Source: a virus. Taken from it: a stretch of DNA of 22,959 bases. How positions within the stretch are numbered: position 1 is the stretch's first letter; every line of letters starts with the position of its first letter. A program made the position numbers and the translations under genes. The stretch lies in the IMG/VR virus record IMGVR_UViG_3300045999_004134, positions 1 to 22,959 of that record, one strand, 5' to 3'. The notes beneath the pieces are model-generated. The model had not been told where the DNA came from. It did no database searches and was given only the letters and a program-made list of their open reading frames with translations. Positions 2,894-22,959 of this stretch are shown here, in pieces.

Positions 2894-3209
2894 CGCTTAT
2901 CCCTAGTCTGTTCACGTTCGTCCAAATAATCGCATTCCGTCCGCTTGCTGTCTTAGCTAGGCGGCCGGAGTTGAATAGATAGTGCTCTTGGGTTAGTTCA
3001 GCGCGGCGCGATCTTACGCCAGATGAGCTAGCCATTGGTGCGTCACCACTAGACATATACCGGCAGTATTGCGCGTAAAGTTCTTCGTCCGTTAGGTATC
3101 CGAACTTGTCGAATAGCCAAAGAATGAATCGCTTTGTTGCGGTTAGGTTGGTTACCGATGCGGCCGCTTCGTGGCTCGTCATCGGGTCAGTCGTTCTTGC
3201 GTGTGGCAT
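2886..3209 (-). CDS. Winged-helix-like phage protein (ARTTDP-type)
   Basis: The protein has 107 residues. It opens with ARTTDPMTSHEAAASV, a signature seen at the N-terminus of a widespread but uncharacterised actinophage family. The middle resembles a winged helix: FILWLFDKFGYLTDEELY as helices, then SGVRSRRAELTQ as the probable recognition helix, and a C-terminal wing ending GRLAKTASGRNAIIWTNV. Such an arrangement suggests DNA binding, probably regulatory. AGGAGAGG a few bases upstream of the ATG at 3209 is one of the strongest Shine-Dalgarno sites here. It slightly overlaps the preceding MerR-like gene. Confidence 0.7.
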   Translation of the reverse strand: MPHARTTDPMTSHEAAASVTNLTATKRFILWLFDKFGYLTDEELYAQYCRYMSSGDAPMASSSGVRSRRAELTQEHYLFNSGRLAKTASGRNAIIWTNVNRLGISDE

Positions 3210-3390
3210 AGTCCTCTCCTGTTAGTACGGTTTTGATAGTTTCTTTTGTTATGAAGATCCGGCGTGGGCCTTTTACGATCGCCGGCAGGTATCCGGTGCG
3301 GATCCAGCGATACACCGTGTTTAGGTGTGCGCCAGTTAGCTCTGCGGCTTCTTTAGGTGTGTATAAATCTTTTGTTAGTTGGTTTCCCAC
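3187..3390 (-). CDS. MerR/excisionase-type helix-turn-helix protein
   Basis: The product has about 67 residues from a GTG at 3390, chosen because AGAAAGG lies eight bases upstream. A GTG at 3432 in the same frame has no good Shine-Dalgarno and would overlap the upstream gene far more. The core reads LYTPKEAAELTGAHLNTVYR, then WIRTGYLPAIVKGPRRIFIT. This is the classic pattern of the helix_turn_helix_17/excisionase family, with an EAA first helix, NTVYRWI recognition helix, G-x-LP turn and RRIFI wing. Phages use these as excisionases or small transcription factors. No integrase is in view, so regulation of early genes is the safer reading. Confidence 0.85.
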   Translation of the reverse strand: MGNQLTKDLYTPKEAAELTGAHLNTVYRWIRTGYLPAIVKGPRRIFITKETIKTVLTGEDYATRKND

Positions 3391-3578
3391 GCGTCTAGCC
3401 TTTCTTTTAGTTCGTTGCGGCACATTAGCCACTCTTGTAGCTTTAGATAACTCTCTTGTAGATTTTCGACATTTAGATCGTGCTTAGCGCGTTCTAACGC
3501 TTCATCTACCTCATTAGCTAGCCGGCCTGAAAGTTGGCTAAGTTCTAGTATGGATTTTGCTTGCTCTAGTTTTCTCAT
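3375..3578 (-). CDS. Hypothetical coiled-coil protein, 67 residues
   Basis: The ATG at 3578 overlaps the upstream stop as TAATG, and AAAGGA sits six bases before it; the open frame continues to 3632 without such signals. The product starts MRKLEQAKSILELSQLSG and is almost wholly helical and charged, with Leu/Ala at coiled-coil-like spacing through residues 3-55. No family is recognised. Its 3' end overlaps the HTH gene by about 16 bases, so the two are probably translated together. Confidence 0.6.
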   Translation of the reverse strand: MRKLEQAKSILELSQLSGRLANEVDEALERAKHDLNVENLQESYLKLQEWLMCRNELKERLDAWETN

Positions 3579-4941: not shown

Positions 4942-5252
4942 TAGAACGGCGCGTTAGCGTCAGCCTTTGCGTTCTTTACTAGCTCAATGTATTCGGCACG
5001 AATTTCTAGGGTCGTGCCTTTAGTGCCATCGCGCTTGTCGTATTTCTTGGTTTTTAGCCGGCCTTTCACAGTCACGCGCTGATCCTTTTCAAATCCTGGA
5101 TCTCCGATAACTGAGAAATAGTCATAGCCGACAGTTTCCCATTGGCCACTTTCATTTTGCTGGCGCTGAGCGTGAGAGATGTCATAGACAGTTCCCCACT
5201 CAAACTTCTTTACTTCGTTGATGTAACCTGAGAACTCAATCTGAATAGCCAT
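4941..5252 (-). CDS. ssb: Single-stranded DNA-binding protein (OB-fold)
   Basis: The protein has 103 residues. The pattern of strands fits an OB-fold: MAIQIEFSGYINEVKKFEWG, then ETVGYDYFSVIGDPGF, KDQRVTVKGRLKTKKYD and GTTLEIRAEYIELV. The phrase RVTVKGRLKTKKY followed by a Lys-rich loop and a strand ending EYIELV is typical of SSB-like proteins. The short C-terminal tail ends ANAPF, echoing the terminal acidic-PF tip that bacterial SSBs use to recruit partners, though this tail is only weakly acidic. Placement between the replication initiator and RusA supports the role. AGGAAGG lies about 11 bases upstream of the ATG. Confidence 0.75.
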   Translation of the reverse strand: MAIQIEFSGYINEVKKFEWGTVYDISHAQRQQNESGQWETVGYDYFSVIGDPGFEKDQRVTVKGRLKTKKYDKRDGTKGTTLEIRAEYIELVKNAKADANAPF

Positions 5253-5523
5253 TTTGGGTTCGTCCTTCCTGTTTTATGTGTTCTGGGTTTATACAATCAC
5301 GATGACCACAAGTGCGGACACCGGGCATGAATAACTTGCCATTGTGGATCGGGTTATCGGCTTCGTCAAAATCGCCGCGCCAAGCTAAGCACACTTCGCC
5401 TTTTCCGTAGCGAATAACATGCTCGACTTTCACGCGACAGTCCCGACAAAGATCACGCTTGCCCGGTCGCTTTGTGGGTAAGTCGCGGTTGATCCCACAT
5501 CGGGAACATACGCGTTCATCCAC
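5236..5523 (-). CDS. Cys-rich zinc protein, HNH-like C-terminus
   Basis: The protein has 95 residues from a GTG at 5523. The N-terminus is a zinc knuckle pair: C6-x2-C9 and C26-x2-C29. The C-terminus carries CGHRDCINPEHI, the ending characteristic of compact HNH endonucleases (C-x-H-x2-C-x-NP-x-H). The middle has WRGDFDEADNPIHNGKLF. It may be a small HNH-fold nuclease or a DNA-binding derivative; a first catalytic His at the expected position is not clear to me. It lies between the replication initiator and ssb. There is no Shine-Dalgarno site, but a TATTCT box sits six bases before the GTG. Confidence 0.65.
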   Translation of the reverse strand: MDERVCSRCGINRDLPTKRPGKRDLCRDCRVKVEHVIRYGKGEVCLAWRGDFDEADNPIHNGKLFMPGVRTCGHRDCINPEHIKQEGRTQNGYSD

Positions 5524-5529
5524 AAACTT

Positions 5530-5535
5530 AGAATA
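5530..5535 (-). promoter_or_regulatory. Candidate leaderless -10 box (TATTCT) upstream of the zinc protein/ssb/rusA
   Basis: TATTCT on the minus strand is followed by AAGTTT and the GTG at 5523. It lies just after the replication initiator's stop. If active it would start a transcript carrying the zinc protein, ssb and rusA. Confidence 0.45.
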
Positions 5536-5541
5536 CTGGAT

Positions 5542-6339
5542 TTAGGCATCATTTTCCACCATTTTAGACTGGGAGAAACATCTCAGACAAAGCGCCGGAT
5601 TAGATCCGTGAGGGCATTTAGGCGGCGGCGCGGCCATCGCGGCGATCGCTTCCTGTTCCTTTAGGTATCTCTCAGACGCTAGGCGGTCTTTTGAAGCCTT
5701 TTCTGCCCTAATCGCGGCTAGATCCTCAACCGACTTCTCTCGTGCCGGCAGAGGCTCGTCTAGCCAGCCCTCGCGGTTTAGCCAAGTGGTCGGATGAGGT
5801 ATAAATTGCGCCGGCGGCAGGTTAGGGTCGTTTGCGAACCGGCGAGCGCCGGCTACGGCGTGGCAACCGTCCTCGGCTAGCTTTAGGAAAGCCTTTCTAG
5901 CGGCGGCCTTGCCGACCTTGCGTGGATAGGCTTCCCAGAACTGATCAAACCAATCGTCATATAGTTTCTTAGTTTCAGTATTCTTAGTATTGTTATTCTT
6001 ATGTATCGGGTTTTCCGATGACGGGAAATCCGATGACGGCAAATCCGATGGGTCAGTAGTCCGCCAAATAGCCTCACCGAACCGGTTAGAGATCCGGCTT
6101 TGGGATCGCTCTAAATAGCCGCCGGCCTCTAGTTCTTTGACCGCCGACCGGATTAGATCCGTGCCGCAATCGTTTGCCCTAGCTAGTTGGCCGATAGAAA
6201 CCGACCAGCCCGGACTATGGCTAAGCAACTGAGCAAGTAATCCAATCGCTTTTAGGCTCAACCGGTTATCCCTTAGCCACGAATTAGGGATTTGGGTGAA
6301 TTGACTATCGAACGCGTGGTTTCCGCGAATTATCGGCAT
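5542..6339 (-). CDS. Replication initiator, winged-helix N-terminus
   Basis: The product has 265 residues from the ATG at 6339, preceded by GAAAGGA. Residues 10-95 form a winged helix typical of phage and plasmid initiators: F-x-Q-I-P-N-x-W-L-R near 14-23, LSLKAIGLLAQLLS and IGQLARAN helices, DLIRSAVKELEAGGYLER as the recognition part. A low-complexity linker (about 98-125) follows, then a DnaD-like or helicase-loader-like helical domain with FDQFWEAYPRKVGKAAARKA and FIPHPTTWLNREGW. The tail has C242, H244, C251 and C254, a probable zinc site. The linker is encoded by 15-base repeats that may be the origin. The initiator would bind there and recruit a helicase, presumably the host's. Confidence 0.8.
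   Translation of the reverse strand: MPIIRGNHAFDSQFTQIPNSWLRDNRLSLKAIGLLAQLLSHSPGWSVSIGQLARANDCGTDLIRSAVKELEAGGYLERSQSRISNRFGEAIWRTTDPSDLPSSDFPSSENPIHKNNNTKNTETKKLYDDWFDQFWEAYPRKVGKAAARKAFLKLAEDGCHAVAGARRFANDPNLPPAQFIPHPTTWLNREGWLDEPLPAREKSVEDLAAIRAEKASKDRLASERYLKEQEAIAAMAAPPPKCPHGSNPALCLRCFSQSKMVENDA
5958..6050. repeat. Candidate replication origin: three 15-base-spaced repeats beside an AT-rich stretch
   Basis: TCCGATG occurs at 6014-6020, 6029-6035 and 6044-6050, exactly 15 bases apart. The surrounding bases are nearly the same in each unit (AAATCCGATGACGG-type). The adjoining 5958-6007 is very AT-rich and includes TATTCTTA twice. Iterons followed by an AT-rich segment inside the initiator gene is the layout of the lambda origin in gene O. 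The repeats also encode a repetitive Ser/Asp/Pro linker, so protein-level repetition is the alternative explanation. Confidence 0.45.
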
Positions 6340-18297: not shown

Positions 18298-18701
18298 TTA
18301 GTTTTTTGGCGGTAAAGCTCTAGCAACTAGGTAACGGTAAATAGTCCAAAGCATACGATCATCTAGCGCAAGTAGTTCGCGTGGGCTGATGCCGGTTTCT
18401 ACGGCGATACTGGCGATATACCAGTGCGCTGAACTATCGCCTAGCCCTTTGATTTTGGGTCAGCATCACCAGCGCCAACTGTTTCAATCTTTTCTAACCA
18501 CTTCTCAAAAGGATCAGTAGTCGCACCAGTTCTTTTCTCTGAGTGCCAAGCTAGGAAATACAGGTAACTTACTTTGGGATCGTTGCCCAAAGAAGCGATA
18601 GAAACACCAAATTTTTCTTCAAATGCAACCATGTCGGCGGCGTTGGCAATAATGTCTTTGCCAACACCACCGTCATAGTCAATGTGTAGGTTTATTCTCA
18701 T
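18298..18701 (-). CDS. Tail assembly chaperone, -1 frameshifted long form (GT-type)
   Basis: Ribosomes slipping back one base at CCCAAAA would read on from the unshifted frame into a second frame that stays open to the TAA at 18300-18298. The joined product has 134 residues. The extension reads IKGLGDSSAHWYIASIAVET, then GISPRELLALDDRMLWTIYR and YLVARALPPKN. TGISPRELL-x-LD-x-RMLW is the recognisable signature of the downstream (T) part of siphovirus tail chaperones. The short and long forms together bind the tape measure and recruit tail-tube subunits. Four of the seven Leu codons in the extension are CTA. No start codon or ribosome-binding site of its own is needed. Confidence 0.88.
18441..18701 (-). 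CDS. Tail assembly chaperone, short form (G-type)
   Basis: The unshifted product has 86 residues: MRINLHIDYDGGVGKDIIAN, then ADMVAFEEKFGVSIASLGND, and ends GAGDADPKSKG. The stretch V-A-F-E-x-K-F-G followed by YLYFLAWHSEKR is typical of the N-terminal part of tail chaperones (FExxFg...l.yLaw.a..r). It stops four codons past the slippery site. It lies between the major tail protein and the tape-measure region, the standard place. The start has no Shine-Dalgarno site; TACGAT lies six bases upstream of the ATG. The frame also supplies the first 83 residues of the long form. Confidence 0.88.
   Translation of the reverse strand: MRINLHIDYDGGVGKDIIANAADMVAFEEKFGVSIASLGNDPKVSYLYFLAWHSEKRTGATTDPFEKWLEKIETVGAGDADPKSKG
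18453..18459 (-). promoter_or_regulatory. Programmed -1 ribosomal frameshift site (CCCAAAA)
   Basis: The heptamer reads C-CCA-AAA in the chaperone frame, an exact X-XXY-YYZ slippery sequence, at codons 82 and 83. The zero frame stops four codons later, and the -1 frame is open for 51 more residues with a chaperone signature. I did not find a compelling downstream stem-loop or pseudoknot by eye. Confidence 0.9.
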
Positions 18702-18707
18702 ACGAGT

Positions 18708-18713
18708 ATCGTA
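18708..18713 (-). promoter_or_regulatory. Candidate leaderless extended -10 (TGA-TACGAT) for the tail chaperone
   Basis: TACGAT is followed by ACTCGT and the ATG at 18701 on the minus strand, and is preceded by TGA, so it qualifies as an extended -10. It lies in the 18-base gap after the major tail protein stop. Confidence 0.5.
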
Positions 18714-19547: not shown

Positions 19548-20141
19548 TTACGCCATCCTAATCCGGCGATACGGCGCGAGGATAGAAGCAACATCTGGGT
19601 CAATACGGCTAACCCTAATCACACCGATTTCTCCGACACCGGCTACGCCAAGCGGTGAGTCATAGCGCTTGTATTGGCGCTGGCTAAGAATGATACAGGC
19701 TTGCTTTATTTCGCTAGGAACAGTTGCCCAACCGAAAGTTCCTGTGACTTCAACAGTTGCTTCGCCACCGAAAGTTGGAAAAAGATAATCACCACGAGCG
19801 CGGATCTGCGTGTAACTAACATTTAGACCACCAGCGATTCCGTTCAGCGGCTCTAGCTGATAATCGCTAGCCGCCCAAGTCGTATCGTAAGTTCCGTCTA
19901 TGTCGCTTTGAGTTTTGAGCGTAGTCAAACTGACTAGATCGTCAATTTCAGTAATGTAACTATCATTCGGGGTATAAACCCTAGTAGCAGTTGTTGTATA
20001 AAACCGGCGCTGACAATGTCCGTCTATTTGGCGAGAGGCTGACTCGATCGCAGTTTCAATCAAAGTATCATCGACATTATCGGAAATGCGCATAGCGGCC
20101 TTGACCTGCGCGAGAGTTGCGTAACCATTAGTAATTGCCAT
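19548..20141 (-). CDS. Head-tail connector (gp6-like)
   Basis: The protein has 197 residues. It begins MAITNGYATLAQVKAAMRIS, then DDTLIETAIESASRQIDGHC and RRFYTTTATRVYTP. A helix pair with DxxLIExAIExASRxIDxxC, followed by R-F and a strand-rich part, is the hallmark of HK97 gp6/SPP1 gp15-type connectors that form a ring under the portal. The C-terminal helix (SEIKQACIILSQRQYKRYDS) then GVAGVGEIGVIRVSRIDPDV and APYRRIRMA is also usual for actinophage members. AAGGAG six bases before the ATG is strong. In most siphophages this gene directly follows the capsid gene, but here three sugar-metabolism genes are interposed. Confidence 0.85.
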   Translation of the reverse strand: MAITNGYATLAQVKAAMRISDNVDDTLIETAIESASRQIDGHCQRRFYTTTATRVYTPNDSYITEIDDLVSLTTLKTQSDIDGTYDTTWAASDYQLEPLNGIAGGLNVSYTQIRARGDYLFPTFGGEATVEVTGTFGWATVPSEIKQACIILSQRQYKRYDSPLGVAGVGEIGVIRVSRIDPDVASILAPYRRIRMA

Positions 20142-20151
20142 CGGGATCTCC

Positions 20152-20583
20152 TTAGAGGTCTATTGTAGCGCGTAATCTTCTTTTGATTTCGGTGCTACTT
20201 ACGCCGGCGGTATAGGGGATGTAAGCCAATCCGATACCGTTAGCCTCTAGCCAATCCACATCAAAATTCATTTGCTTTAGATAATCTTTCCGTAACCAGT
20301 CTGTTCCGATTATTACTAGATCTGGCATTACGGATTTGATAGCCGGCTTACTATCTGCGCCGCCGGTGTTTGGGATAACTCTATCAACATAACGACACGC
20401 GGCTAACACGTGAAGTCGCTCGGTATAAGTCATTACCGGCGGTTTGCCTTTGTAGGCCTCAATGAACTCATCGGTATTTAGCGACACAACGACTTTGCCT
20501 AATTGGGCACAGCGTCTCAAAAACTCGGCGTGACCTAGATGAAATAAATCAAAAGTTCCGCCGGTGTAAATCCTCAATCCCAT
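20152..20583 (-). CDS. TagD-like cytidylyltransferase
   Basis: The protein has 143 residues, usual for the glycerol-3-phosphate cytidylyltransferase group. GGTFDLFHLGHAEFLRR at 8-24 contains the nucleotide-binding H15-x2-H18 motif. VSLNTDEF follows, then IIGTDWLRKDY, and AGVSSTEIKRRL at 126-137 occupies the place of the RTxGISTT motif. The family transfers CMP or a similar nucleotide to an activated alcohol or sugar phosphate, giving CDP-glycerol or a related donor. Its two neighbours are glycosyltransferases, so the three genes probably make and attach a surface sugar or polyol. GGAGAG before the ATG supports the start. The precise substrate cannot be read from the sequence. Confidence 0.85.
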   Translation of the reverse strand: MGLRIYTGGTFDLFHLGHAEFLRRCAQLGKVVVSLNTDEFIEAYKGKPPVMTYTERLHVLAACRYVDRVIPNTGGADSKPAIKSVMPDLVIIGTDWLRKDYLKQMNFDVDWLEANGIGLAYIPYTAGVSSTEIKRRLRATIDL

Positions 20584-21245
20584 CTGTTCTCTCTCCGCCT
20601 ATCTAGCCGCCAGCCCCATACCGTATTGTCGTTGCTTATGGTCTTAGCGTAATGGACTTGCTGATTGCGCTGAAAAGTCGCGGCGTTGCGATCTTGATAG
20701 CCGCTGTTTAGGGTTGAGCTGTTATCGTGATGGACTACCGCGTCTATCGTGTGGAACGGCACTTTGAAGTGTTTTAGCCGGCGCTCGTAATCGTCATCGT
20801 CAAAGTAGATCGGGTAAAAGATTTCATCCCATAAACCGGCCTTAGAAACGGCCGTAGCGGTCGGAATAACGCAAGACCAAGCAGGGGATACCCTAACGAA
20901 ATTGAACGCGTCTAATCGCCTCTCAGCGGCTATGGTGGCCAAAGCACCCGGCTCGAACCAACTATCGTCATTAGGTAGAACCCAGTAATCGGCGTATGGG
21001 GTTGATTTGATAATTAGGTTCCAAGCGCCGTTAGCGCCTAGACCATAGGGAACTTCTATGTGCCATAGCTTTTCTACGCAGTCCGGCTTGCTAGGTGTCC
21101 AGCTTTTAGTGCCGCTGTTATTTACTATGACTAGGTGTTCGATCGGATAATCAAGCGAATTTAGTAGCCGTTGAGCTAAGTCAAACCGACTAAGAACCGC
21201 AAACCCTACTACTGGGATAGGAGTTTTTTGAGTGTCGGCATCCAC
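20574..21245 (-). CDS. GT-A (family 2-like) glycosyltransferase
   Basis: The product has 223 residues from a GTG at 21245. IPVVGFAVLSRFDLAQRLLN begins a Rossmann-like sugar-nucleotide fold. NNSGTKSWTP follows, then GLGANGAWNLIIKSTPYADY and VLPNDDSWFEPG, whose DD at 93-94 stands for the DxD metal-binding motif. YFDDDDYERRLKHF later in the chain could provide the catalytic base region. The GTG has no good Shine-Dalgarno sequence, but a TGA sits just upstream in frame, so no earlier start exists in this frame. It overlaps the upstream glycosyltransferase by 37 bases and the downstream cytidylyltransferase by 10, as one transcription unit. Confidence 0.75.
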   Translation of the reverse strand: MDADTQKTPIPVVGFAVLSRFDLAQRLLNSLDYPIEHLVIVNNSGTKSWTPSKPDCVEKLWHIEVPYGLGANGAWNLIIKSTPYADYWVLPNDDSWFEPGALATIAAERRLDAFNFVRVSPAWSCVIPTATAVSKAGLWDEIFYPIYFDDDDYERRLKHFKVPFHTIDAVVHHDNSSTLNSGYQDRNAATFQRNQQVHYAKTISNDNTVWGWRLDRRRENRWD

Positions 21246-22420
21246 GCTTCAAACCAAACCTTTTCTACATCGAAGTCTTTAGCGAACTCACGCGAAACTT
21301 GACTACGGCCTTTACCATGAGCGTATGCCTGTTCAAGCGCACTAACTATTGAGGGCACTTTCGGGATCTGCCACCAAGCCTTTTGAGCGCTATCCCATTG
21401 AGGTTGGCCATCCACTAGCCATCCATCAGTAGAAACTAGATCCTCGCTAGCCGCCCATCCGGATCCAATGACCCTAGTGCCGCAAGACTGTGCTTCCATA
21501 GTCGGCACACCAAATCCCTCGCCCATACTAGGCGCTAGCAAAACATCCATACCCGAATAGAGTGCGGCCATCATTTCATCGCTCACGCCGTATCGGTAAT
21601 CGCGAGGATCCGGAAACATTACATCGTCTTTAGATAATCCACAGGCCGAGATAAGTTCTAGCAAGTTCCAACCAGAGGCGAACCCTAGTGGTTCGGTGTG
21701 TAAATACAGAACCGCGTCCGGGTGCTTTTGCTTGAAAATAGAGAAAGCAAGAATGTTCTCACTATACGACTTTCTATGAACTAGGCCGCTAGCCTTATTT
21801 GCCGCGACCATTCCGACTACAAACTTATCTTTAGAAGCAAAGTATTCTTCTATGTTTTGTCCGTTCGGCAACTCAGTCCGAGGCTTGAACACTTTAGTAT
21901 CTATGCCGTGAGGTATGTAGGAGTGGTCAATACCTTTTTGCGTTAGCAGTTTAGATCCGTTAGGTGCCATAGTTAGCGGATGAACATTCGGCCGTTGTAG
22001 CCACGCTTCTACTAAAGGTGGAAGTGTTATGTGGTCAATCGGTACCCAACTAGCAATCTGCCTTATGTCGGCAAACTTAGGTGAATTGAATACCCAAACA
22101 TCAAACAGGGTAATCATTAGGTCTTTTAGATCCGGGTGCTGGCTTGCCCAATGTAAGTGATCACCGGGCGCAACATCGTTGCTATAACCATCGAAGCCGC
22201 GAGGGAAATGCGGCACTTTTCCGTAAGGAGTATTTAGATCCTCAAAGCGGCCATCTAATCCATAGTTACTTAGCGCGGCTACTTCTAATCCGTGACGCTT
22301 CAAGCGTTCGACTACGAGCTTTGATTGAACTCCGTAGCCAGTAGGCACTCCGGGACTGTTAGACCAAAAGGTAACAGCGCCGGATAATTTCTCTGTTTTG
22401 CGTGGGTCATTTGTGGGCAT
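21209..22420 (-). CDS. GT-B (family 4-like) glycosyltransferase
   Basis: The product has 403 residues from the ATG at 22420. A GTG at 22465 would put the start inside the capsid terminator and was rejected. The N-terminal half has SPGVPTGYGVQSKLVVERLK, typical for the acceptor-side domain of GT4 enzymes. The C-terminal half has LAPSMGEGFGVPTMEAQSCG then TRVIGSGW, the E-x7-E type donor-sugar site. It is likely to use a nucleotide sugar donor. It is the first gene of the sugar module lying between capsid and connector genes. TATGCT six bases before the ATG suggests a leaderless transcript that begins right after the terminator. Confidence 0.87.
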   Translation of the reverse strand: MPTNDPRKTEKLSGAVTFWSNSPGVPTGYGVQSKLVVERLKRHGLEVAALSNYGLDGRFEDLNTPYGKVPHFPRGFDGYSNDVAPGDHLHWASQHPDLKDLMITLFDVWVFNSPKFADIRQIASWVPIDHITLPPLVEAWLQRPNVHPLTMAPNGSKLLTQKGIDHSYIPHGIDTKVFKPRTELPNGQNIEEYFASKDKFVVGMVAANKASGLVHRKSYSENILAFSIFKQKHPDAVLYLHTEPLGFASGWNLLELISACGLSKDDVMFPDPRDYRYGVSDEMMAALYSGMDVLLAPSMGEGFGVPTMEAQSCGTRVIGSGWAASEDLVSTDGWLVDGQPQWDSAQKAWWQIPKVPSIVSALEQAYAHGKGRSQVSREFAKDFDVEKVWFEAWMPTLKKLLSQ

Positions 22421-22426
22421 AGCCAC

Positions 22427-22432
22427 AGCATA
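22427..22432 (-). promoter_or_regulatory. Candidate leaderless extended -10 (TGC-TATGCT) for the sugar module
   Basis: TATGCT on the minus strand lies six bases before the ATG at 22420 and is preceded by TGC. It follows directly on the T-run of the capsid terminator, so transcription would restart as soon as the capsid message has ended. Confidence 0.5.
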
Positions 22433-22434
22433 GC

Positions 22435-22481
22435 AAAAAAGAAACCCGGAGAGAGCTACCCACACACAAGCTCTCTCCGGG
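22435..22481 (-). terminator. Strong intrinsic terminator after the major capsid gene
   Basis: CCCGGAGAGAGCT (22445-22457) and AGCTCTCTCCGGG (22469-22481) are perfect 13-base arms around an 11-base loop. On the minus strand the stem is followed by TTTCTTTTTT (22444-22435). It lies 18 bases after the capsid stop codon. In the opposite direction the T-run is weaker (TTTTATT), so the main use is leftward. Confidence 0.92.
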
Positions 22482-22499: not shown

Positions 22500-22959
22500 T
22501 TAGCTAGCCGCACCCTTGAAGAACTTCACGTGACCGCTGTGGGTCAGGTTTCCATCTACGCGCATTAGCACGCGGAAGGTAGTTACATCGGTGTTGAAAG
22601 CGTAGTCCGCAGACTGAGCGATCTGGAGACCGCCGGCCATACGAACCTTGTAGCTTGGTAGGTGACCGAAGATCACAGACTTCGCGTTGGTCGCGGTGTC
22701 TGCCATCGCAGGGTTTTCTACTACGCGGAAACCAGCAAAGGTGTCTGGCTGTCCAACGCCAACTTGGTATAGGTAGTTACCAGCGGTGTCTTTGAGCTTG
22801 CGCATCTTTCCTAGTGAGGATCCGTTGAGCATAAAGCCAACACCCGGTAGTCTGCGAGCCGCGCCGTCTAGAGAGTAGGCGAGGTCGATTAGGTTGTCAG
22901 CGGTAAATGCGCCGGATACTCCGGTGCCACCAACTAGAGCAGAACCAGCGGCAGTTACT
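22500..22959 (-). CDS. Major capsid protein (HK97-type), C-terminal part
   Basis: The gene is cut by the right edge; 152 residues are visible in an uninterrupted frame to the TAA at 22502-22500. The visible part has GAFTADNLIDLAYSLDGAAR, then FMLNGSSLGKMRKLKDTAGN and YLYQVG. It continues with GFRVVENPAMADTATNAKSV and IFGHLPSYKVRMAGGLQIAQ. These are the HK97-fold P- and A-domain signatures (dLidLaysl..., lkDtaGnyLy..., fGhl..Y.vr). The usual family length is about 280-400 residues, so about half is missing. The terminator directly downstream means a discrete end for this abundant message. Confidence 0.9.
   Translation of the reverse strand, partial: VTAAGSALVGGTGVSGAFTADNLIDLAYSLDGAARRLPGVGFMLNGSSLGKMRKLKDTAGNYLYQVGVGQPDTFAGFRVVENPAMADTATNAKSVIFGHLPSYKVRMAGGLQIAQSADYAFNTDVTTFRVLMRVDGNLTHSGHVKFFKGAAS

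Follow-up and report, generated by a model that had tools for sequence, protein, structure and literature searches.

A complete IMG/VR record, IMGVR_UViG_3300045999_004134 (22,959 bases, analysed at full length and called the window here), encodes on its minus strand the C-terminus of a phage major capsid protein, followed by a terminator hairpin and by a cassette of glycan genes whose first member is a GT4-like glycosyltransferase (GT-B below). In its apical loop, this hairpin carries a sequence complementary to the beginning of GT-B and to that of a second, distant gene, which encodes the tail assembly chaperone. Among related phages the complementarity co-varies, is independent of reading frame and distance, and recurred in a set of fresh loci. 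Judging from these patterns, we consider it fairly probable that the gap behind the capsid gene is a slot for glycan cassettes and that the hairpin in the 3′ untranslated region (3′UTR) of the capsid mRNA is a base-pairing regulator of the chaperone and, in many carriers, of the GT4-like enzyme. An earlier annotation of this DNA (the original prediction) had missed the complementarity of the loop to both gene starts and its co-variation with them.

The terminator loop co-varies with the start of the GT-B gene

The elements concerned lie as follows; offsets are counted from the A of the ATG.

22445..22481, minus strand: capsid terminator hairpin, 13-bp stem and 11-nucleotide (nt) loop, then a T-rich run, TTTCTTTTTT (−25.6 kcal/mol)
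22458..22468, minus strand: apical loop TGTGTGTGGGT, complementary to the GT-B start and to the tail chaperone
22412..22419, minus strand: GT-B target TGCCCACA, offset +1 (8 bp, one G-U; best local duplex −15.9 kcal/mol)
22399..22407, minus strand: second match to the hairpin loop, ACCCACGCA, in GT-B (sequence match)

Among relatives, the stems of the hairpin vary freely and the loops much less; TGTRGGT on stems of at least 12 pairs was found at 56/62 near capsid ends versus 2/186 elsewhere. In many of the 142 listed regions the loop reads as the reverse complement of the beginning of the following gene; the frame changes, and the match sometimes stands before the ATG. In the same regions deviating loops go with deviating targets. 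Taking the GT-B and chaperone starts together, the co-varying loop/target pairs include GTAGGTT/AACCTAC, CTAGGTT/AACCTAG, GCAGG/CCTGC, GTAGGGT/ACCCTAC and GGTTGAT/ATCAACC.

For the duplex-energy and match tests, loops were taken from RNAfold and targets were fixed start windows; the pairing statistics that precede the replication pool all loci collected by then, including those seeded on the cassette. Over 89 clusters, the duplex energy of a GT-B start with its own loop was −11.30, versus −9.04 with permuted loops (standard deviation (sd) 0.21), and none of 10,000 permutations was as low. The 42 clusters formed at 70% identity gave −10.59 versus −8.66 (sd 0.33), again with 0/10,000 as low. In a compensation test, target sites were picked by their likeness to the consensus, regardless of their own loop, and a row was kept if both sides had at least 5 of 8 consensus letters. 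Compensated loop deviations numbered 39/91 over 99 rows (permuted mean 9.9, maximum 21) and 17/41 over 34 rows (permuted mean 7.0, maximum 14). Moreover, the tree of 87 GT-B proteins requires 21 loop-type changes, so that several of the switches are separate events. Most loci have only a few tens of nt between the hairpin and the GT-B start, and the match is kept across the long capsid–GT-B gaps of loci L108 (651 nt) and L172 (522 nt). One locus, L254, was counted as the program read it, as a 6-bp GT-B match, despite TGTGTAGG opposite CCTACACA in its hairpin region.

The tail assembly chaperone is a second target of the loop

A scan for further loop matches turned up a site ∼3.8 kb from the hairpin, at the start of an 86-codon gene.

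18441..18701, minus strand: tail assembly chaperone, short form, 86 amino acids (aa), between tail tube and tape measure, with an in-frame −1 slippery heptamer
18298..18459, minus strand: −1 frameshift extension of the chaperone, 53-codon reading, with slippery CCCAAAA at 18453-18459 (sequence)
18683..18691, minus strand: chaperone target ACCTACACA, offset +10 (9 bp, one G-U; best local duplex −15.0 kcal/mol)
18708..18713, minus strand: TACGAT six bases before the chaperone ATG, a possible leaderless promoter (TANNNT with a gap of 6 occurs 20 times in 92 loci)

We call this gene a tail assembly chaperone because an in-frame −1 slippery heptamer with its extension marks it; both are found in 87/87 distinct genes and, taken with the position, agree with the siphophage G/GT type. 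Its start also co-varies with the capsid loop. The pairs include CTAGGTTG with CAACCTAG, as well as GTAGGGT/ACCCTAC, GCAGG/CCTGC, GTAGGTC/GACCTAC, GCGTAGA/TCTACGC and GGTTGAT/ATCAACC. For 80 representatives the duplex energy was −11.43 versus −9.64 when permuted (sd 0.20; 0/10,000).

Conserved protein N-termini, or a common translation-enhancing motif, could yield such complementarity, the loop then matching by chance or through a shared host partner. The chaperone start MKINLQI is indeed widely conserved, and AACCTAC is the commonest form at both genes. Nevertheless, the effect was equally strong when only the 45 representatives whose loops lack GTAGGTT were permuted among themselves (−10.63 versus −8.46, sd 0.28), and the frames of the matches differ. 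The Leu codon of the chaperone tracks the loop, being CTA in 45/50 genes with GTAGG-type loops and CTG in 5/5 with GCAGG loops, against backgrounds of 22% and 17%, respectively. Where the chaperone protein starts differently, the match stands just upstream of the ATG (L113, L244, L273, L274 and L058) or further up (L014), which indicates that it acts on nucleic acid. We therefore regard an origin in the protein or in a general start motif as very unlikely.

A match at the chaperone is retained in 6/8 loci without GT-B; the chaperone is therefore probably the older target, which the cassettes joined later. The same loci bear on pairing in cis, by which the loop would fold onto the GT-B start as a pseudoknot in long read-through transcripts and insulate GT-B, the chaperone match being a long-range contact within the same transcript. 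The short distance between hairpin and GT-B start in most loci favours this arrangement. However, the match is kept over gaps of 155-998 nt and, in L265 and L272, despite a second hairpin in between; the chaperone site is kilobases away, often behind further promoters, and persists where GT-B is absent. Pairing in cis thus appears unlikely, and a local pseudoknot was rejected as the only explanation, as the matches survive long insertions.

An element acting at the DNA level, with the inverted copies as half-sites of a phage repressor or of an invertible promoter, would also show co-variation of its halves, and a promoter flanked by inverted repeats is indeed present. Against it, one of the copies forms the apex of a hairpin whose stem otherwise varies (the TGTRGGT counts above), the spacing ranges from a few tens to 998 nt, and a third copy lies kilobases off, inside or just before a coding start. 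We hold such an element to be highly improbable. An invertible promoter was set aside, as in none of the 142 listed regions did we notice the element in inverted form.

Control counts, replication and points against a pairing regulator

A match was defined as at least 7 bp with at most one G-U, and 110 non-redundant rows of the 142 were used. Matches were present at 68/101 GT-B starts and 59/73 chaperone starts, the internal controls giving 6/101 and 8/101 inside GT-B and 7/73 inside the chaperone. Other starts matched at 9/95 (connector), 12/90 (tail terminator), 2/82 (tube), 9/80 (GT-A) and 2/59 (cytidylyltransferase). The 65 loci with both genes comprise 42 with a match at both, 11 at the chaperone only, 2 at GT-B only and 10 at neither. 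An 8-mer scan for targets placed 76 matches at the start of GT-B, 87 at the start of the chaperone and another 79 at dispersed sites of the coding strand. The opposite strand gave 387, which are expected to be mostly the loops themselves and were not inspected individually.

To replicate these counts, we took from 209 newly fetched loci a fresh set of 63 whose sequence behind the capsid gene is <85% identical to any earlier row. They were seeded on connectors of three clades of the discovery set and so are new sequences, not unrelated phages. Loop method, windows and threshold were the same, and some mis-called GT-B starts (e.g. L402, at −55) were kept in the count. GT-B starts matched in 28/63 loci versus 0/63 in the control, a rate below that of the first set, and chaperone starts in 42/47 versus 7/47; connectors (0/63) and tubes (0/52) did not match. 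Both permutation tests again gave 0/10,000, and the match was kept across gaps of 675 nt (L423) and 998 nt (L439).

Several observations weigh against the hairpin as a regulator by pairing. The GT-B target is not general: 33/101 GT-B starts of the first set and 35/63 of the fresh set lack a match of at least 7 bp. Both matches are absent in some clades (10/65 loci of the first set, 5/47 of the fresh one), and in the clades of L126, L209, L216 and L052 the loop is a different one and GT-B is unmatched. The Pontimonas phage phiPsal1 (MG835450), the only isolate-linked relative, is without a 7-bp match, its longest being 6 bp at the chaperone and 4 at GT-B. The matches span just 7-11 bp. Kinship makes the loci non-independent, and the permutations leave ancestry in; part of the chaperone match is also fixed by the conserved amino acids N-L-Q. 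Finally, plain cofolding of hairpin and target in the window did not give the loop–target duplex as the minimum-energy structure; this failure may instead mean that a loop contact requires modelling of the folded hairpin, beyond plain cofolding.

In phiPsal1 (L002, 6910-6985 and 10817) the capsid hairpin loop contains TCATAC, complementary over 6 bp to GTATGA at the chaperone start codon and also complementary to the ATGA of GT-B, which is below threshold but suggestive.

A possible mechanism and its relation to known systems

If the capsid 3′UTR hairpin is a regulator, it is probably a repressor. We infer pairing in trans, repression by blocking of the start regions, and late timing. Late in infection, the capsid mRNA would accumulate together with its 3′ hairpin, which, within the mRNA or cut from it, would bind the starts of the chaperone and GT4 mRNAs in trans. 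Pairing of the loop at the ribosome-binding region would block translation, and as a result the chaperone and the glycan enzymes would be held low relative to capsid. In its full form, in which the capsid mRNA would be a trans-acting riboregulator whose terminator loop serves as a co-evolving ‘address’ that shuts off chaperone translation, incoming cassettes acquiring this address at their first gene, we regard the proposal as evenly balanced between right and wrong.

IS10 RNA-OUT and plasmid antisense RNAs have hairpins whose loop pairs with the start-codon region at the 5′ end of an mRNA, and the complementarity of the capsid loop to mRNA start regions is similar. However, these antisense RNAs are encoded opposite their targets and are fully complementary to them, whereas the capsid hairpin and its targets are found in different places on the same strand, with matches of 7-11 bp; the element is thus not a cis-encoded antisense RNA of the RNA-OUT type. 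The co-varying complementarity of this mRNA 3′ end to the start regions of its candidate targets agrees with a 3′UTR-derived base-pairing RNA. Such RNAs, e.g. s-SodF of Streptomyces coelicolor, likewise have an mRNA 3′ end that matches another mRNA and, as far as the accessible text of PMC9438474 goes, s-SodF represses. The present candidate differs in that the predicted seed is the apical loop of the terminator itself, the mRNA is that of a phage capsid, the two targets belong to the same phage and the co-variation is fast. Phage and prophage small RNAs that regulate by base-pairing include DicF, which resembles a terminator, and STnc6030 (PMC12197685); the word ‘capsid’ occurs 0 times in that review of phage small RNAs, and its accessible part names no capsid 3′ end element. 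The literature search turned up no mention, in title or abstract, of phage genes regulated by the loop of a capsid terminator; this is weak evidence, as most subscription papers lay outside the search. For the hairpin itself, Rfam gave 0 matches at the gathering score (6 sources).

A terminator of the capsid gene and a predicted promoter of the cassette

22427..22432, minus strand: −10 element TATGCT of the predicted leaderless promoter, six bases before the GT-B ATG (TANNNT-N6-ATG in relatives)
20162..20167, minus strand: TACAAT, a −10-like element of a predicted separate promoter for the connector, ahead of a short leader that contains GGAG (sequence; relatives' signature)

As the original prediction held, a terminator closes the capsid message: the G+C-rich 13-bp stem-loop followed by a U run is that of an intrinsic terminator and is found in most relatives. 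A local stem scan found hairpin and T-run in 73/80 occupied and 5/7 empty slots; among these 5 empty slots, the call for L264 is weak and does not correspond to the obvious hairpin of that locus. Because the hairpin is also present in empty slots, the terminator belongs to the capsid gene. The sugar module was thus rightly credited with a promoter of its own but not with a terminator of its own. In L265 and L272, a second terminator-like hairpin stands between the capsid hairpin and GT-B, and GT-B still matches the loop of the first.

The GT-B leaderless promoter, likewise predicted, is well supported statistically, as TANNNT ends exactly 6 nt before the ATG in 104/132 GT-B genes of relatives. 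The corresponding TANNNT-N6-ATG precedes 56/119 connectors, i.e. about half of the relatives show a leaderless promoter signature for their tail genes. Since the cassette has its own TANNNT-N6-ATG promoter and the connector its own −10, the cassette is probably a transcription unit of its own, and the suggested placement within a structural operon did not stand.

A slot for interchangeable glycan genes between capsid and connector

22500..22959, minus strand: HK97-fold major capsid protein, C-terminal 152 aa, 5′ end cut by the contig end (PF05065, E 1.2e-29; TIGR01554, E 2.4e-35)
21209..22420, minus strand: GT-B (GT4-like) glycosyltransferase, 403 aa, ATG start, first cassette gene (PF13692/PF00534 above cut-off; PHROG 2170)
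20574..21245, minus strand: GT-A glycosyltransferase, 223 aa, GTG start, 37-nt overlap with GT-B (PHROG 29879)
20152..20583, minus strand: cytidylyltransferase-like nucleotidyltransferase, 143 aa (PF01467, E 1.3e-18)
19548..20141, minus strand: head-tail connector, right boundary of the cassette slot (PHROG 442, PF05135)

All parts of the sugar module placed between capsid and connector by the original prediction are present on the minus strand as described. To estimate how often the slot is filled, we used only loci anchored on the connector or the capsid, since the other sets were seeded on the cassette itself. The anchored sets are the best 80 of 591 (connector) and the best 80 of 586 (capsid) candidates, of which 34 and 29, respectively, were without a full slot; the remaining loci gave 39 and 48 distinct slots after dropping identical slot sequences only, and the two sets share contigs. 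Among the 39 connector-anchored slots, 30 contain GT-B, 4 contain GT-A without GT-B and 5 are empty; among the 48 capsid-anchored slots, 46 contain GT-B and 2 are empty. Nearly every occupied slot has a GT4-like enzyme, and the genes behind it, for transferases, nucleotide-sugar enzymes and methyltransferases, are interchangeable. Other contents are GT4-like and GT2-like enzymes, MptE-like proteins, NAD epimerases, a UDP-glucose dehydrogenase, methyltransferases and a TOD1/MUCI70-like protein. The trio of the window (GT-B, GT-A, cytidylyltransferase-like), whose co-occurrence in relatives had been put forward as a check, is contiguous in 12/39 and 18/48 distinct slots, respectively, so that this check did not refute the prediction; the trio is one of several versions of the cassette.

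Contents differ even between close relatives. The flanks of L231 and L232 are 99.6% and 95.3% identical in DNA, yet one cassette ends in an epimerase and the other in a cytidylyltransferase and a methyltransferase-sized open reading frame (ORF) from the cluster of the methyltransferase of L204. Likewise, L169, L191, L193 and L195 have differing contents between nearly identical flanks. Of 29 pairs with at least 85% DNA-identical flanks, 15 are listed as different, some in ORF length only. L007, a close relative of the window, shares 97% protein identity in capsid end and connector; its GT-A is 37% identical, and it has no cytidylyltransferase. By its gene content, the gap between capsid and connector looks like a cassette slot for glycan genes, a serotype-like site with swapped contents.

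Two side observations concern the slot. In L113 an HNH endonuclease gene (3055-3561) lies between cytidylyltransferase and connector, with ORFs of the same length in L112 and L114; it is possibly a homing element in the cassette site. Microcystis phage Mae-JY09 (L003) has a GT-B relative of 35% identity at 5016-6200, two genes behind the capsid gene, and the slot position may thus be older or convergent.

The cassette enzymes and their probable acceptor

With a Pfam group 1 profile above cut-off and a GT-B fold in its structure model (predicted local distance difference test, pLDDT, 93.9), GT-B agrees with the GT4-like class. The best fold match of the model in the PDB is 3oy2 (E 8e-17, template modelling (TM) score 0.73, 17% identity), followed by MshA and sucrose-phosphate synthases; in a viral structure library the closest entry is a phage RfaG-type enzyme. 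The GT-A model (pLDDT 94) has a GT-A fold, as expected of a GT2-like enzyme, with PDB matches to AvpGT, WrtF, GlfT2 and SunS; the protein matched no Pfam family at E 0.01, Glycos_transf_2 included, and no NCBIfam family. The third protein had been called TagD-like. Its membership of the cytidylyltransferase-like superfamily stands (PF01467, 68 bits versus a gathering score of 21), and P0001 contains HLGH, which we take to be the HxGH motif of this superfamily. The closer kinship does not, as the TagD equivalog TIGR01518 (glycerol-3-phosphate cytidylyltransferase) scored 79.5 bits, far below its cut-off of 165.4; this score also speaks against glycerol-3-phosphate, the substrate proposed earlier. 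PDB matches (3elb, 2b7l, 1coz, 5x3d) include ethanolamine-phosphate and glycerol-3-phosphate cytidylyltransferases. Relatives of this protein (∼50-55% identity) are carried by 63 Streptomyces phage records (e.g. Jay2Jay), and no Streptomyces phage matched GT-B or GT-A of the window cassette.

The fixed place behind the capsid gene, the serotype-like swapping and the 3oy2 fold match suggest a virion-directed role, and we lean slightly towards a cassette that decorates the capsid or tail with a lineage-specific glycan. Chlorovirus capsids are glycosylated, and 3oy2, the PDB fold closest to the GT-B model, is a chlorovirus (NY2A) glycosyltransferase, but it is only 17% identical. A plausible ranking of acceptors places the virion first and the host surface second, with DNA unlikely. 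Virion glycosylation is already known in mycobacteriophages: in work cited in PMC11256854, Che8 and Rita have phage-encoded glycosyltransferases and a glycan on the capsid. The accessible text of that paper places the glycosyltransferase genes of their relative Maravista near the 3′ end of the genome, whereas here a swappable cassette of predicted glycan genes lies directly behind the capsid gene.

Modification of the host surface, for superinfection exclusion or receptor masking, is a smaller but real possibility. It is a known role of phage glycosyltransferases and, in the accessible parts of the respective papers, is one option proposed for Nanopelagicales phages with such genes (PMC10202952), while hosts such as Pontimonas are described as rich in wall glycosyltransferases (PMC6106888). 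However, the fixed place behind the capsid and a regulator common to a tail-assembly gene would point to late, virion-linked timing, and lasting host conversion matters less for a phage such as phiPsal1, which was judged lytic (PMC6106888, accessible text). Glycosyltransferases of freshwater actinophages were already known and have been read as DNA protection or superinfection exclusion (PMC10202952, accessible text). Protection of phage DNA by sugar modification of its bases, suggested there as one option for related freshwater phages, we consider most improbable here: no base-hypermodification family was found among the scanned ORFs of the window, which is without the terminase-portal part and has many ORFs without a family.

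Gene order of the window and its phage group

The window encodes a siphophage tail region together with recombination, replication and lysis genes, and the contig ends inside the capsid gene. The order on the minus strand is capsid C-terminus, hairpin, GT-B, GT-A, cytidylyltransferase-like gene, connector, tail terminator and tail tube, followed by the 86-aa gene, a 201-aa gene and the tape measure. A small MerR/excisionase-like protein (3187-3432) and an HNH protein (63-413) are encoded near the left end of the contig; no integrase was found among the scanned window ORFs.

The phage group is large and uncultured, and its hosts are probably aquatic actinobacteria. Among named phages, phiPsal1 alone has close relatives of both GT-B and GT-A. 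According to the accessible text of PMC6106888, this phage occurred at a low level alongside a marine Microbacteriaceae strain, and the authors considered it lytic. It shares the order capsid, GT4, GT2, neck (capsid end 64% and GT-B 52% identical) and differs in a methyltransferase on the other strand, the lack of a cytidylyltransferase and the lack of a loop match of at least 7 bp.

Implications

The balance of head, tail and modification proteins in tailed phages is a long-standing question, and most answers to it invoke gene order, ribosome sites and frameshifting. A loop in a terminator, co-evolving with the starts of two genes, would be an answer at the RNA level, testable with reporters. 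If correct, it would constitute an RNA feedback that couples head production to tail assembly and virion glycosylation, and the loop code could predict genes regulated by the capsid message in uncultured phages. The slot itself would offer a serotype-like system for phage particles, for which natural swaps between near-identical phages are already to hand.

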